NCBI RefSeq assembly: GCF_021026335.1
Contig: NZ_JAJNCY010000001.1
Coordinates: forward strand, 310,001-374,000
Reading direction: 5' to 3'
From: Rhizobium sp. C1
GTDB taxonomy: Bacteria; Pseudomonadota; Alphaproteobacteria; Rhizobiales; Rhizobiaceae
Length of the DNA: 64,000 bases
Shown here: in pieces, positions 839-56,755 of the stretch
Layout of the letters: each line of letters begins with the position of its first letter
How positions within the stretch are numbered: position 1 is the first letter of the stretch
Position numbers and translations under genes: made by a program
The notes under the pieces: generated by a model
The model's database searches: none
The model's input: only the letters and a program-made list of their open reading frames with translations
Told to the model about the DNA's origin: nothing

Positions 839-880
839 ACGGCTGACCGCGTATCAACATTCCGGAATTAAAAAGAAAAA

Positions 881-913
881 CGCGCGGAAGTTTCTCCACT
901 TCCGCGCGTTTTC
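881..913. terminator. bidirectional rho-independent terminator
   Basis: A perfect 11-bp stem (CGCGCGGAAGT, 881-891, pairing with 898-908) closes a 6-base loop. It is followed by TTTTC on the plus strand and preceded by an A run at 876-880, so it works in both directions. It sits between metF (plus) and the small convergent membrane-protein gene (minus). Confidence 0.9.
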
Positions 914-981
914 AATCTTTTTCTTAGAGCCTCAAGCTCGATCCCGGCCTTTACCCGAAGCCGGACAGGCGTCCTGTCATC

Positions 982-1059
982 TCAGATGAACAGCATCGAC
1001 GCCACAAACAAAAACGCTGCACCGATCATCAGGACATTGAGCGATTGCGTAAGTCCCAT
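982..1059 (-). CDS. 25-residue single-pass membrane microprotein
   Basis: A short open frame that annotation length cut-offs would usually drop. It starts at ATG (1057-1059), preceded by a perfect Shine-Dalgarno GGAGGT (1065-1070, 5 bases away), and stops at 982-984. The product begins MGLTQSLNVL and then forms one hydrophobic stretch to the C-terminus (ending ASMLFI), so it is almost entirely one transmembrane helix with no cytoplasmic domain. Transcription would end at the shared terminator 881-913. Function unknown. The strong ribosome site, lack of overlap with other genes and own terminator argue that it is real. No homologue can be named from memory with certainty. Confidence 0.6.
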   Translation of the reverse strand: MGLTQSLNVLMIGAAFLFVASMLFI

Positions 1060-1456
1060 GGCTGACCTCCTTCGCGTTAACGAGCATCATCATAGGCAGC
1101 ACTCGCGCCGTTTGAAAAGCGAAACTTGTGCTGCGGTGCCGTAGACACAGTTCTGAAGAGTGCGCCTAAATTCCGTATCTCATTGGAATATAATCGGTTT
1201 TTAAGTCGAGAAAATTTGTGGGCGAATTAATTCCAGGTTAACGGTGATGTTGCGGTGCATCATTTTGAAGCAATGTGACAAATTCTTGAAAGTGTTGGTC
1301 TTTCCGAAATCTTGAAACATCCGTTCCGTTTCTGGACGAGTTGCCTGTTACGTTTTGACTGGCGACGGCACTGTTTCTGCTGCGCTGCGGTTGGCACGGC
1401 GGCGTGAATCGGCGCATAGTTGCCGGCAGTGTAGGCAGGCAAGGCAGGCAGGAACG
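1060..1456. other. intergenic region with candidate promoter
   Basis: About 400 bases between two divergent genes. A perfect TATAAT lies at 1189-1194 on the plus strand, but no good -35 is seen at the right distance. The last 30 bases before the antiporter start hold a short GGCA tetranucleotide run (about 1436-1452). No RNA gene or further reading frame with a ribosome site was found here. Confidence 0.4.
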
Positions 1457-20156: not shown

Positions 20157-20411
20157 ATGCGGCACGCGATTGAAGGTGAATACACACGTTACGAACAGCG
20201 GCAGATTGCCGGGCTTCTGGTTGAAGCTCCGCGCCATCTGAGCGGTTTCGAGGCGGTGCGCGCCACGTTCAATGTTTGGCAGGCGCGGCGGAATTTGAGA
20301 CGCCAGATGGCCCGCGACATGGAGACGTTCACGGACGCCATGCTCGAGGATGCCGGCATGACCCGCAAAGAGGCAGAGCGCGAGGTGCGCAAGCCGTTCT
20401 GGATAGCGTGA
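20157..20411 (+). CDS. small DUF1127-like protein
   Basis: 84 residues, basic. The C-terminal part (MLEDAGMTRKEAEREV) follows the DUF1127 pattern, a short amphipathic helix ending in a G-x-T/S-R-x-E/D block. DUF1127 proteins are small, Arg-rich, common in alphaproteobacteria and often stress- or phosphate-linked; some bind RNA or assist RNA turnover. ATG at 20157 has AAGGAGA at 20145-20150. Divergent from the LysR gene, and followed by a hairpin terminator. Function unproven. Confidence 0.7.
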   Translation: MRHAIEGEYTRYEQRQIAGLLVEAPRHLSGFEAVRATFNVWQARRNLRRQMARDMETFTDAMLEDAGMTRKEAEREVRKPFWIA

Positions 20412-20568: not shown

Positions 20569-20964
20569 CGCGCCAGTTGGCCGGGCAGCCGCGCTTCATC
20601 AATGCCGAAAGGCGATGGGGTGAGGAAAGTCCGGGCTCCACGGAGATACGGTGCCGGATAACGTCCGGCGGGGGCGACCTCAGGGAAAGTGCCACAGAAA
20701 GCAAACCGCCTTCCTCGGAAGGTAAGGGTGAAAGGGTGGGGTAAGAGCCCACCGCGCGCCTGGCAACAGGGGCGGCACGGTAAACCCCACCGGGAGCAAG
20801 ACCGAATAGGGATGACGCGGCGGGGCAACCCGTCAGCCTGTTTCCGGGCCAGTCATCCGGGTGGGTTGCGCGAGGCGGCATGCAAATGCCGTCCCAGATG
20901 AATGGCTGCCACGTTCCGGTTCGCCGGAGCCATACAGAACCCGGCTTACAGGCCAACTGGCGAA
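20569..20964 (+). ncRNA. rnpB: RNase P RNA (bacterial class A)
   Basis: Catalytic RNA that cuts 5' leaders from pre-tRNAs. The universal core is readable: GAGGAAAGTCCGGGCTCC (near 20619-20640, the P4/CR-I region) and ACAGAA-type CR sequences (GCCACAGAAAGC and the final CATACAGAACC). The two ends close helix P1: GCGCCAGTTGG (about 20569-20579) pairs with CCAACTGGCG (about 20953-20962). Length about 395 nt is normal. Ends are set by P1 pairing and may be off by a few bases. Short open frames across it on both strands are spurious. Confidence 0.95.
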
Positions 20965-53389: not shown

Positions 53390-55222
53390 TCAGCCGACGG
53401 GTTGCGTCGCCTGTTCGAGCCATGTGCGCACCTTCTTGTCCTCTATCAGCGGAAGCAGATTGTCCCGCGTCGTAGCGTGATAGGCGTTCAGCCAGTCCAG
53501 TTCCTCCCGCGTCAACAGCGCGGGCAGGATCAGGCGCCGGTCGATGGGGCACCAGGTGATGGTCTCGAAGCCGAGCATCGGCTTGTCGCCCCCGGCAATC
53601 TCGCTGGCGGGTTCCACGACGATCAGGTTTTCGATGCGGATGCCGAAGGCGCCGGGGCGATAATAGCCGGGCTCGTTCGACAGGATCATGCCGGGCAGGA
53701 GTTCCTGCATGGCGGCGCGCGAAATCCGCTGCGGGCCTTCATGCACCGACAGATAGGAGCCGACACCATGGCCTGTGCCGTGGCCATAATCGGCGCCAGC
53801 CTTCCAGAGCGCGATGCGGGCGAGCGGGTCGAGATCGACGCCGCGGGAACCTGCAGGGAAGCGAGCCGTGGAAATGGCGATCATGCCCTTCAGGACGAGC
53901 GTGAAGAAGCGCTTCTCCGTCTCGCCGACGCTGCCGATGGCGACCGTGCGGGTGATGTCGGTCGTGCCGTTGCGATACTGGCCGCCGGAGTCGACGAGAT
54001 AGAGTTCGCCGGGTTTCAGCTGTCGGTCGGTCTCGCGGGTGACGCGATAGTGGATGATCGCGCCATTGGGGCCGGCGCCCGAAATCGTGTCGAAGGAAAT
54101 GTCGGCCAGCGGGTTCTGCATGCGCTCGCCGACGCGGCGGCGGCAGGCCTCCAGCTTTTCGACGGTCTCGATTTCTGTCAGCGTACCCGGTTCTGCCTCG
54201 TCGAGCCAGGCAAGGAATTCGACCATGGCGACGCCATCCTGAATATGGGCGGCGCGCGTTCCGGCGAGCTCCGCTTCATTCTTGGTGGCGCGGGGCAGGG
54301 CGCAGGGATCGGTCGCTTCCCTGATCTTGCCACCCGCGGCCTCGATCCGCCTCACGAGTTCGAAGGAAACCGCACTGGCGTCGACCTCGATTGTGGCGCC
54401 GCGTTTGCTCAGCGCGTCCAGCGCCAGGGCCAGGTCACCGGGGTCGCGCAGCTCGCAAATCTGGGTGAGGTAGGCCTTTTCCTCGATGCCGGTCTTGCGG
54501 GCGTCGAGAAAGAGTTCGGCAAGCGCGTCCGCATGGATGATCGCGCGCGCCAGCGGGTGTGGTGTATGCGGCACGTCGGAGCCGCGGATATTGAAGGCCC
54601 AGGCAACGGAGGAGGGGTCGGCGATCAGCACCGCGTCCGCATTGCGTGCCTTGAGCCCCTCGGCAATCTCGGCGATCTTGTCGCGGGCGAGCGTCCCCGA
54701 ATGCTGGTGTTTCTGGATGGTCACGCGGCCAAGCGGCTCGGCGGGGCGGTCGGCCCAAAGCGCGTCGAGCGGATTTTCCTCAAGGAAAACCAATGCTCCG
54801 CCCTTGGCCTCCAGCGCCGTCTTCAGCTTGCGCACCTCGGCAATCGTGTGCAGCCATGGATCGATGCCAAGGCGAAAGCCCTGACCGGCGTGCTGCGCGA
54901 TCCAGGCGGCCGGCGGTTCGCCGACCAGATCGCCGGGTGTGAAAACGGCGGGATCTGTCTGTTGCGCAAGCTGCGTTACATAGCGCCCGTCGACGAAAAC
55001 CACCGCGATCTGCTGCGCGATGAGCGCGGCGCCCGCCGAGCCGGTGAAGCCCGTCAGCCAAGCCAGCCGCTCGGCCGAGGCGGGGACATATTCGCCCTGA
55101 TACTCATCCGCCCGCGGCGCGAGGAAGCCGTCGACCTTAAGCGCCAGAAGGCGCTCCCGCAGGGCCTGGACGCGGGGAGCCCCCTGTGCGGGGCTGGCGG
55201 TGGTTTCGAAGCTCTGGAACAT
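53390..55222 (-). CDS. aminopeptidase P-family Xaa-Pro peptidase
   Basis: 610 residues, the long three-domain type found in alphaproteobacteria and eukaryotic cytosolic XPNPEP1, versus about 440 in E. coli PepP. Creatinase/pita-bread fold with the five metal ligands: YLVDSGGQYRNGTTDITRT (two Asp), GHGTGHGVGSY (His), LSNEPGYY (Glu) and RIENLIVVE (Glu). Releases an N-terminal residue before proline. ATG at 55222. Convergent with azlCD. Confidence 0.92.
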   Translation of the reverse strand: MFQSFETTASPAQGAPRVQALRERLLALKVDGFLAPRADEYQGEYVPASAERLAWLTGFTGSAGAALIAQQIAVVFVDGRYVTQLAQQTDPAVFTPGDLVGEPPAAWIAQHAGQGFRLGIDPWLHTIAEVRKLKTALEAKGGALVFLEENPLDALWADRPAEPLGRVTIQKHQHSGTLARDKIAEIAEGLKARNADAVLIADPSSVAWAFNIRGSDVPHTPHPLARAIIHADALAELFLDARKTGIEEKAYLTQICELRDPGDLALALDALSKRGATIEVDASAVSFELVRRIEAAGGKIREATDPCALPRATKNEAELAGTRAAHIQDGVAMVEFLAWLDEAEPGTLTEIETVEKLEACRRRVGERMQNPLADISFDTISGAGPNGAIIHYRVTRETDRQLKPGELYLVDSGGQYRNGTTDITRTVAIGSVGETEKRFFTLVLKGMIAISTARFPAGSRGVDLDPLARIALWKAGADYGHGTGHGVGSYLSVHEGPQRISRAAMQELLPGMILSNEPGYYRPGAFGIRIENLIVVEPASEIAGGDKPMLGFETITWCPIDRRLILPALLTREELDWLNAYHATTRDNLLPLIEDKKVRTWLEQATQPVG

Positions 55223-55373
55223 GGTGTGGCCGATCGAATGTCTGCGATATCCGGGAGGTCTACTCTATCCGGCGGGGGGATGCCACGCCATGGATTTTCG
55301 GAAGGAGAGCGTTTTTAACCGGATGGATAAAATTATGCAAAAAACGCATGGCTCCCATGAGTAATCGACTCTG

Positions 55374-55400: not shown

Positions 55401-55449
55401 AAAATCAACGAACGGAGCCGAAGTGCTGCGGAAACGAAGGAAAACGAAG

Positions 55450-55602
55450 ATGTCGATCCTGGGAACGATGATGAAGAGCGTTATTGCATCGCGTGAGCGT
55501 GAGGCGCAGCGCTATGTGTCTCGCGTTCTTGCCAACATGGACGACGTGACGCTGAATTCCCTCGGCAAATCCCGCGATGAGCTTAAGAAGGGGCCGTTCT
55601 AA
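55450..55602 (+). CDS. small DUF1127-like protein upstream of hairpin sRNAs
   Basis: 50 residues. After a hydrophobic start (MSILGTMMKSVIASRER) it matches the DUF1127 pattern RYVSRVLANMDD-TLNSLGKSRDEL. In Rhodobacter sphaeroides the DUF1127 protein CcaF1 is encoded directly before CcsR small RNAs, co-transcribed with them, and affects their processing; the layout here is the same. ATG at 55450 with AAGGAAA upstream. Gap to the first hairpin about 28 bases, with no terminator in between, so one transcript is likely. Confidence 0.8.
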   Translation: MSILGTMMKSVIASREREAQRYVSRVLANMDDVTLNSLGKSRDELKKGPF

Positions 55603-55624
55603 GAGATAAAGTTCCCGTTTCGGC

Positions 55625-55771
55625 GGTTTAGAGATCGCTCCTCCTCCCAAGATCTCTTGCCTCAAGTCGAAACTGGTTTGTTCCCGGCAACTCCTCCTCC
55701 CAATGCCGGGACACGATCAGCCTGGCTGATCCAAGGGCGATGCCACCTCCTCCCGGCATCGCCCTTTTTTT
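55625..55771 (+). ncRNA. cuckoo/CcsR-type small RNA cluster with anti-Shine-Dalgarno loops
   Basis: Four hairpins in 150 bases. H1: AGAGATC (55630-55636) / GATCTCT (55651-55657). H2: CCCGGCA (55683-55689) / TGCCGGG (55704-55710). H3: GATCAGC (55715-55721) / GCTGATC (55725-55731), short loop. H4: 10-bp GGGCGATGCC (55735-55744) / GGCATCGCCC (55755-55764) and then T7. H1 and H2 loops share the 13-mer CTCCTCCTCCCAA; the H4 loop is ACCTCCTCCC. Exposed CUCCUCC in loops of compact hairpins downstream of a DUF1127 gene is the definition of the alphaproteobacterial cuckoo RNA family. They probably pair with ribosome-binding sites (GGAGG) or with proteins. Confidence 0.8.
55735..55771 (+). terminator. 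rho-independent terminator that is also the last anti-SD hairpin
   Basis: Perfect 10-bp stem, 10-base loop with CCTCCTCCC, then seven T. One structure ends the transcript and carries the presumed functional loop. Confidence 0.9.
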
Positions 55772-55870: not shown

Positions 55871-56755
55871 TTATTTCGCGCCGCGCTCGAGCACGATCGT
55901 GACCCAGCCGTTGCGCCAGATGGTGCGGCGGTGGGCGAGCTTCTGGCCGTTATAGGCGGCGAGAACCTTGAGCCGCTGGCTTGCCAGGATGCCGGAGAGA
56001 ATCACAGTCCCGCCGGGCACAAGGTGACGGACGAGGTCGGGCGCCATCTTCATCAGGGGCTTTGCCAGAATATTGGCGATGATCAGATCGAAGGGGCCGT
56101 TGCGGCGAAACGCGCCGTGGTGGAAGCCGGGGGCCGTCTCGAAGCGCAGCCCTGCGCCGACGCCGTTCTTGCGGGCGTTTTCTTGCGCCACGCGTGTGGC
56201 GATCGGGTCGATGTCGGTTGCCAGAACGGGGATCGGCTGAATCTTGCGGGCGGCGATCGCCAGCACACCGCTGCCGGTGCCGAGGTCGAGCGCATTCTTG
56301 ACCTTGCGGGAGCGCAGCACCCAGTCGAGCATCTCGAGGCAACCGGCGGTCGTGCCGTGATGGCCGGTCCCGAAGGCCTGGCCGGCATCGATTTCGATCG
56401 CCACGTCGCCGGGCATGACGCGGTTTCGGTCATGCGAGCCATGGACCAGGAAGCGTCCGGCGCGGACCGGCTGAAGGCCGTCCAGCGATTTTGCCACCCA
56501 GTCGGTGTCGGGCAGCACTTCCCGCTGGATTTCGAGATGCTCGTAGTCTGGCGTCAGCGCCTGTTCAAAGGCTGTTCTGGCACCGTCTTCGTCACCCATC
56601 ATCGTGTAGACGGCGGTTTCCCATACATCGTTCGCCTCGTCGATCTCCATTGTCGTCACGGCATATTCGCCGTCTTCGAAGATCGCGCCGAGGCGGTCCA
56701 GGATGATGGCGCAGTCGTTTTCGCCAGCGTTGATGTAGAGACGGACTTCGCTCAA
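55871..56755 (-). CDS. prmA: ribosomal protein L11 methyltransferase PrmA
   Basis: 294 residues. Trimethylates L11 using SAM. N-terminal substrate domain (SEVRLYINAGENDC), linker (VLPDTDWVAKS), then the methyltransferase domain: AFGTGHHGTT, LDLGTGSGVLAIAA, DLIIANILAKPL (NxxP-type active site). A TTG start at 56755 is inferred from family alignment and the GGGGGAA just upstream; the frame stays open further, through the next gene in another frame, which is meaningless. About 45 bases after the SCO gene, same strand. Confidence 0.92.
   Translation of the reverse strand: MSEVRLYINAGENDCAIILDRLGAIFEDGEYAVTTMEIDEANDVWETAVYTMMGDEDGARTAFEQALTPDYEHLEIQREVLPDTDWVAKSLDGLQPVRAGRFLVHGSHDRNRVMPGDVAIEIDAGQAFGTGHHGTTAGCLEMLDWVLRSRKVKNALDLGTGSGVLAIAARKIQPIPVLATDIDPIATRVAQENARKNGVGAGLRFETAPGFHHGAFRRNGPFDLIIANILAKPLMKMAPDLVRHLVPGGTVILSGILASQRLKVLAAYNGQKLAHRRTIWRNGWVTIVLERGAK

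Follow-up and report, generated by a model that had tools for sequence, protein, structure and literature searches.

The gap between prmA and an aminopeptidase gene of Rhizobium sp. C1 (a genome of 4.53 Mb in 22 contigs) contains a conserved locus in which the frame of a small protein is followed by an RNA with three anti-Shine-Dalgarno (anti-SD) loops, one of them inside the terminator. The locus resides in the window, that is, the entire 64,000-nucleotide stretch of DNA analyzed here, and its features are collected in Table 1. The reading that we favor, with a probability of about 0.6, is that of an LsrB-type-activated mRNA with an NfeR1-like anti-SD 3' UTR that curbs ABC-transporter and catabolic mRNAs. 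Specifically, a LysR-type regulator, most likely LsrB/VtlR, would activate one promoter at the 55335-55349 box, giving rise to a single transcript, from about 55407 to 55771, that would be translated into a 50-residue protein distantly related to DUF1127. The 3' UTR would be an NfeR1-like RNA in which the loops of hairpins H1, H2 and H4 present CCUCCUCCC and H4 also terminates. Acting at full length or after cleavage between the stop codon and the hairpins, this RNA would block the translation of ABC-transporter and catabolic mRNAs by pairing with their extended SD (UGGGAGGA). We infer transcription, its start, LsrB as the regulator, processing, targets, repression and the role of the protein from comparisons of genomic sequences.

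Table 1. Predicted features of the prmA-aminopeptidase locus (window coordinates)
Feature	Position	Strand	Basis
M24-family, aminopeptidase P-like gene	53390-55222	minus	Pfam
LTTR-type box ATGC-N7-GCAT (contains TGCA-N6-GCAT), candidate LsrB site	55335..55349	+	6/6 genus members
-10 element CTATAAA	55394..55400	+	sequence; predicted start about 55407
SD-like GAAGGA	55436..55441	+	sequence; 8 nt upstream of ATG
50-codon gene of the small protein, distantly DUF1127-related (including TAA stop)	55450..55602	+	homologs, profile-profile comparison, codon evolution
Outer stem P0, enclosing H1	55614..55676 (55614-55627 with 55659-55676)	+	fold; covariation helix 1
Hairpin H1, loop GCUCCUCCUCCCAA; AGAGATC-GCTCCTCCTCCCAA-GATCTCT	55630..55657	+	fold, stem test
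Hairpin H2, loop ACUCCUCCUCCCAA; TCCCGGCA-ACTCCTCCTCCCAA-TGCCGGGA	55682..55711	+	fold; covariation helix 2
Hairpin H3, without anti-SD motif; GATCAGCCTGGCTGATC	55715..55731	+	fold; covariation helix 3
Hairpin H4 + T7, intrinsic terminator, anti-SD loop ACCUCCUCCC	55733..55771	+	fold; covariation helix 4
prmA	ends at 55871	minus	NCBIfam L11 methyltransferase

In the gap, the 50-codon frame is followed by P0/H1, H2, H3 and H4 with its T7 tail. An earlier note on this DNA had described the frame, the four hairpins, the motif in three of the loops and the T7 terminator, to which we add the outer stem P0, absent from that description. The arrangement is borne out by the sequence, by its presence in all 6 genomes of the genus and by the predicted fold of -70.3 kcal/mol, compared to -46.1 +/- 3.9 for shuffled sequences (z = -6.1; none of 200 shuffles folds as stably). 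The loops of H1, H2 and H4 carry CCUCCUCCC, so that each molecule would display three near-identical loops. H4 consists of AAGGGCGATGCC-ACCTCCTCCC-GGCATCGCCCTT (55733-55766) and runs into T7 (55765-55771); a strict terminator scan omits it because the loop limit of the scan is 8. All four hairpins are found in 6 of the 6 genus genomes with the loops retained, the stems of H1 and H2 being most altered in one of them (G003), where the H1 stem comprises only 4 uninterrupted pairs. The H3 palindrome occurs in a single place per genome, at this locus, in all 6, which rules it out as a dispersed repeat. Five of the 13 CTCCTCC sites of the window (both strands) fall within 116 nt at the locus; the total of 13, against 8.7 expected, is unremarkable in itself. 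Loss of the loops while the protein stays, the observation that the earlier note named as fatal to its proposal, does not occur in the genus, where 6 of 6 members keep both; in the wider family, both types of loss occur, namely, hairpins without the frame and the frame without hairpins.

Related loci were gathered across Rhizobiaceae by a scan with the neighboring aminopeptidase protein. The best 80 of 258, which are mutually related, were retained, and the covariation and conservation counts given here rest on such related, not independent, loci. Two TCCTCC clusters, 40-62 nt apart, are present in 61 of these best 80 of 258 loci. The common architecture includes P0 around H1, H2 (often CCCGCTTGAGC...GCTCGCGGG), a usually motif-less H3 and the terminator H4. 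The motif-less H3 is present in 39 of the 42 dereplicated loci of the family (the exceptions are L108, L115 and L118, the latter two from Agrobacterium), which refutes the suggestion that the third hairpin sets the window locus apart. The earlier note had also pointed to the last hairpin, which doubles as the terminator. The terminator contains the motif in all 6 genus members and, among the best 80 of 258 loci, in only 3, all from the window genus. The feature that sets this genus apart is the anti-SD loop inside the terminator.

In an alignment of all 42 dereplicated loci and the window (A8), 26 of the 33 pairs are changed on both sides and 96.3% of the cells pair; the covariation score is 0.368, compared to 0.212 after shuffling (0 of 500 as good) and at most 0.079 when slid. 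The earlier alignment A5, with 35 of the 42 dereplicated loci plus the window, had left out 7 by hand, including the three without H3, and gave 25 of 33 pairs with both-side changes in its 36 sequences, the same outcome as A8. RNAalifold, applied to the 36 sequences of A5, yields 28 pairs, 23 of them with both sides changed. Both-side changes affect 6 of the 7 pairs of P0 (helix 1). H1 is out of register across the loci; an uninterrupted stem of at least 5 bp round the first motif is present in 29 of the 36 sequences of A5, compared to 28% of flank-shuffled sequences. These compensatory patterns demonstrate conservation of the predicted RNA structure across the family. A covariance model built on A5 (R1) matches at least 116 of 297 family genomes at E<=0.001 and at least 63 of 297 at >=50 bits, with the next best at 40.3; these counts are lower bounds because the filters were strict and only 9 candidates were scored per genome. 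One of the weak matches is an ar14 copy, and others may likewise belong to different anti-SD RNAs. In 199 genomes of the order, a few of which belong to the same family, the best match outside the family reaches 31.8 bits, ruling out a spread of the RNA across the whole order.

The synteny of frame and hairpins in Rhizobiaceae that the earlier note had in view holds for a part of the loci. Among the best 80 of 258, with a frame counted as recognizable at E<=1e-3, 31 combine hairpins and frame, 30 carry the hairpins only, 9 the frame only and 10 neither. Nine hairpin loci that were inspected, including that of Sinorhizobium kostiense, possess the promoter and hairpins with no recognizably homologous frame, although other short frames exist there. 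In the R. tropici-type loci (L119, L130, L137 and L153), a divergent, apparently truncated frame lies upstream of the hairpins, and one arm of P0 seems to be what survives of the final codons of the old frame. These relationships bear on the possibility that the hairpins merely protect or terminate the mRNA of the small protein, as a cis 3' UTR element with incidental CCUCC loops. The RNA does adjoin the frame, with a strong stem and a T-run, and outside the window genus, reading of the sequences suggests that P0 draws on the final codons of the frame. Nevertheless, the loops persist while the stem sequences change, 30 of the 61 hairpin loci (from the best 80 of 258) lack a recognizable frame, and the frame occurs without such hairpins in other genera, all of which renders the cis-element explanation improbable.

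The frame of the small protein is found in 6 of 6 genus genomes, with 45-68% identity to the window protein, and is preceded by GAAGGxAA in five of the six members and by GAAAGGAA in the remaining one. Homologs were detected in 28 of 61 relatives (own genome counted), including 6 among 24 sampled genomes from other families of the order, and a profile search found them in 190 of 297 family genomes (own genome counted); in many inspected genomes, prmA sequence was seen by eye directly downstream of the homolog. In three family genomes (G094:C91, G251:C11 and G304:C53), the gene is duplicated, with copies a few hundred bases apart. In the window genus, pN/pS of the frame ranges from 0.36 to 1.10 over 15 pairs, as expected of a protein under loose constraint. 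In other genera, dN/dS is 0.09-0.26 in the six pairs listed and median pN/pS is 0.33 (78 pairs, 13 loci), which points to purifying selection.

The earlier note called the protein DUF1127-like; family models do not recognize it as such, and a comparison of profiles suggests a distant relationship. None of the 25 homologs matches DUF1127 in Pfam and NCBIfam searches (for Pfam, PF06568 at E<=10, where HMMER filters drop most matches above 0.1), ruling out an ordinary DUF1127 member. In a profile-profile comparison, the protein alignment A3, which comprises 25 of 28 homolog matches (L024, L032 and L034 left out), was set against an alignment of DUF1127 proteins from the same genome (A4, five of the six above the cut-off). 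The result was 81.7% over 26 columns, compared to a maximum of 17.8% among 100 column shuffles, and because of this difference, distant DUF1127 kinship is likely, although not proven. With subsets, the value is 43% for the three short DUF1127 proteins alone and 31% for the genus's own six sequences alone. Elsewhere in the window, an 84-codon frame with a strong SD (20157-20411, plus strand) scores 16.8 bits with DUF1127 (cut-off 23.3) and is located shortly before the RNase P RNA gene (20573-20964).

The promoter region provides the link to nfeR1. A strict sigma-70 scan yields no promoter at the locus, so that a consensus sigma-70 promoter was set aside and the footprint of box and -10 element was used instead. 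The box is located at about -72 to -58 relative to the predicted start, with 59 nt from its TGCA to the TATA. By itself, the box motif is frequent (the window has 4, against 3.4 expected); it is the fixed spacing that is telling. Box and -10 element, with at most one mismatch each and a spacing of 57-60 nt, occur in 68 of 70 loci, compared to 2.9% of 700 shuffles, and the exact box in 45 of 70, compared to 0.14% of 700 shuffles; the 70 are those among the best 80 of 258 loci that contain TCCTCC, the 10 excluded having none in the first 1000 nt, and the two that fail are L095 and L100. A longer pattern (box, C, ATG, -10) has 11 sites in the six genus genomes and 0 in the reversed control. Six of these are at the window locus, in 6 of 6 genomes, and one further site, in 5 of 6, precedes an nfeR1/ar14-type sRNA, each time followed by three copies of CCTCCTCCC at 74, 112 and 153 nt, the nfeR1/ar14 layout. 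In the window genome, the further site belongs to the ar14 copy beside tRNA-Leu and the trigger-factor gene. These counts demonstrate that the promoter pattern is conserved and that nfeR1-type loci share it. Outside the genus, 10 of 22 homologous frames have a box of this kind upstream, compared to 2% of shuffles.

The candidate regulator is suggested by S. meliloti, where LsrB binds TGCA-N6-GCAT at -72 to -57 of PnfeR1 and activates the promoter (PMC10746234). The same motif, a feature of the LsrB/VtlR regulon, is found here in the box at about -72 to -58 of the predicted start. The consensus GCAT-N3-TG-N3-T, given for VtlR of A. tumefaciens and B. abortus in PMC7486931, has one mismatch in the window box (GCAT-GGC-TC-CCA-T), and the Brucella motif, as quoted in PMC12595884, was not seen at the promoter. 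Another LTTR with a T-N11-A site is possible instead of LsrB. The genome encodes a LysR-type gene adjoining an ar15/AbcR RNA, and the placement of lsrB beside the AbcR RNA is a described synteny (PMC8844928); by synteny and domains only, this gene is the candidate lsrB.

The earlier note held that the locus has exactly the order of CcaF1-CcsR1-4. This is correct with respect to the succession of a small DUF1127-related protein gene, anti-SD hairpins of the cuckoo/CcsR/ar14 type and a terminator, which is also that of CIN1. It is not with respect to the protein, which has no match to the DUF1127 model, to the LTTR-type box upstream and to the one motif-less hairpin. In a covariance search, Rfam CcsR1 (RF02791) scores 23.7 bits against a cut-off of 65.3. 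Rfam ar14 (RF02344) reaches 55.5 bits, narrowly below the gathering score of 58.8, and at ten family loci, one of them from the window genus, the element has no Rfam match at gathering scores. A plain CIN1/cuckoo locus would encode a CcaF1-like RNA-binding DUF1127 protein and CcsR-like sRNAs under an RpoH-type stress promoter, with the protein aiding RNase E maturation. In favor of it, one can cite the shared order, the two sub-threshold Rfam scores, the distant DUF1127 kinship and the CIN1 association described in PMC10253847. The same source assigns ccaF1 of R. sphaeroides an RpoHI/RpoHII promoter; the conserved elements here are an LTTR box and a TATA -10 element. The zero of 25 model matches, a box common to nfeR1-type promoters, the motif-less H3 and the many hairpin loci without a recognizable frame all make such a locus unlikely.

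The LsrB-activated transcript with an NfeR1-like 3' UTR, the preferred reading, further predicts a class of targets. The loops of H1 and H2 run past the SD core to CCCAA, ending in UCCUCCCAA, which is complementary to the SD extended to UUGGGAGGA. The genome contains 39 TGGGAGGA-N3-9-ATG sites, 31 of them before frames of at least 100 codons; the reversed control has 1 site, which says little because reversal destroys the SD. Among the 31 frames, 10 encode ABC substrate-binding proteins (by Pfam), 1 an ABC ATPase and 4 AMP-binding enzymes. A control SD, AAAGGAGA, has 31 sites, of which 30 were retrieved, with 22 frames of at least 100 codons and no substrate-binding protein (by the 25 of 28 Pfam families listed, plus reading of the frames). 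The resulting enrichment in substrate-binding proteins (Fisher p = 0.003) comes from a comparison with this single control SD, and the class first drew attention in a set of 16 sites, chosen mainly because they recur in sister genomes, with the count of all 39 following later. Either SD strength or the AbcR/NfeR1 regulon could underlie the signal; the concentration of TGGGAGGA before substrate-binding and AMP-binding genes suggests a shared anti-SD sRNA regulon. In S. meliloti, NfeR1 and AbcR silence this class (PMC10746234 and PMC8844928). Given that the predicted target class is that of NfeR1 and AbcR, we favor the LsrB-activated transcript with a dual output of protein and anti-SD RNA. Autoregulation via the gene's own SD was judged weak by eye.

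The loops could instead act as decoys that have no specific mRNA targets, either by mimicking the anti-SD tail of 16S rRNA and binding SDs without discrimination or by titrating a protein or an SD-bearing RNA. Three near-identical loops per molecule, with a motif that is the anti-SD core, would befit such a role. Yet the H1 and H2 loops extend beyond that core, and a single functional class is overrepresented among the genes with a TGGGAGGA leader, so that a decoy seems very unlikely; the predicted ABC substrate-binding targets fit silencing of mRNAs in the manner of NfeR1 better than mimicry of 16S.

The distribution of frame and RNA also invites an evolutionary scenario, which we offer tentatively, at slightly less than even odds as a whole: the prmA-aminopeptidase locus of Rhizobiaceae would be an sRNA gene born from the tail of an mRNA. 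Under this scenario, an older small-protein gene, which other families of the order possess as well and which often has an LTTR-type box in front of it, would have acquired anti-SD hairpins in the 3' UTR within Rhizobiaceae and assumed an nfeR1-like role. The frame would later have been lost in some lineages, among them Sinorhizobium kostiense, and truncated in the R. tropici-type, and in the window genus, the terminator would have become a third anti-SD arm. With relatives that have protein and RNA, RNA only and protein only, the emergence of an sRNA from a 3' UTR can be put to a direct test.

RNAs of the cuckoo/CcsR kind comprise 2-4 adjacent hairpins. Under the definition in section 2.7 of PMC3927594, each of the adjacent hairpins displays CCUCCUCCC in the loop; at the window locus, 3 of 4 do. 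The same paper describes anti-SD families that have 3 or 4 hairpins and are present in several copies in a genome, and the locus could be among their chromosomal members. Among the papers listed by a literature search, none was recognized as describing the locus itself. In the window, positions 879-1082 (minus strand) match the Rhizobiales sRNA Atu_C9 (Rfam, 98 bits).

Agrobacterium and Brucella have short DUF1127 proteins, some of them under LsrB/VtlR (PMC12501420 and PMC12595884), that resemble the window protein in length (about 50 aa) and in a similar C-terminal pattern, DD-x-x-L-x-x-x-G-x-x-R, and a box of the same kind precedes two DUF1127 genes of the window genome, one with a mismatch. 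The protein described here differs in having no Pfam match, in forming a separate family and in being encoded directly beside prmA in many of the genomes inspected. Elsewhere in the window genome (contig C17, 221088-221552; L002 and L036), a short DUF1127 gene is followed after about 230 nt by a canonical ar14 of the same strand. Both are preceded by an LTTR-type box, that of the gene with one mismatch.

The locus links three topics of rhizobial biology that have been studied separately, namely, DUF1127-like small proteins, anti-SD sRNAs and the redox and nutrient regulator LsrB. It is a conserved locus in which the RNA falls below every Rfam cut-off in the loci tested and the protein lacks a Pfam or NCBIfam DUF1127 match, with a possible role, next to NfeR1 and AbcR, in the control of nutrient uptake. 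With AbcR1/AbcR2 (ar15), of which AbcR1 is activated by LsrB (PMC8844928), it shares the anti-SD silencing of transport and metabolic mRNAs, predicted in our case; unlike AbcR, it has no ar15 match, the three ar15 copies of the genome being elsewhere. There is also a close resemblance to alpha-r14/NfeR1 (RF02344), which likewise has CCUCCUCCC loops, one in the terminator, and the same promoter pattern, found in the six genomes only at these two kinds of locus. The ar14 layout consists of three hairpins with CCUCCUCCC, the last being the terminator, whereas here H1, H2 and H4 are joined by the motif-less H3 and P0. Furthermore, the three canonical ar14 copies of the window genome map elsewhere, and unlike ar14 beside tRNA-Leu and the trigger-factor gene, the RNA described here is located between prmA and the aminopeptidase gene, with a protein gene upstream.
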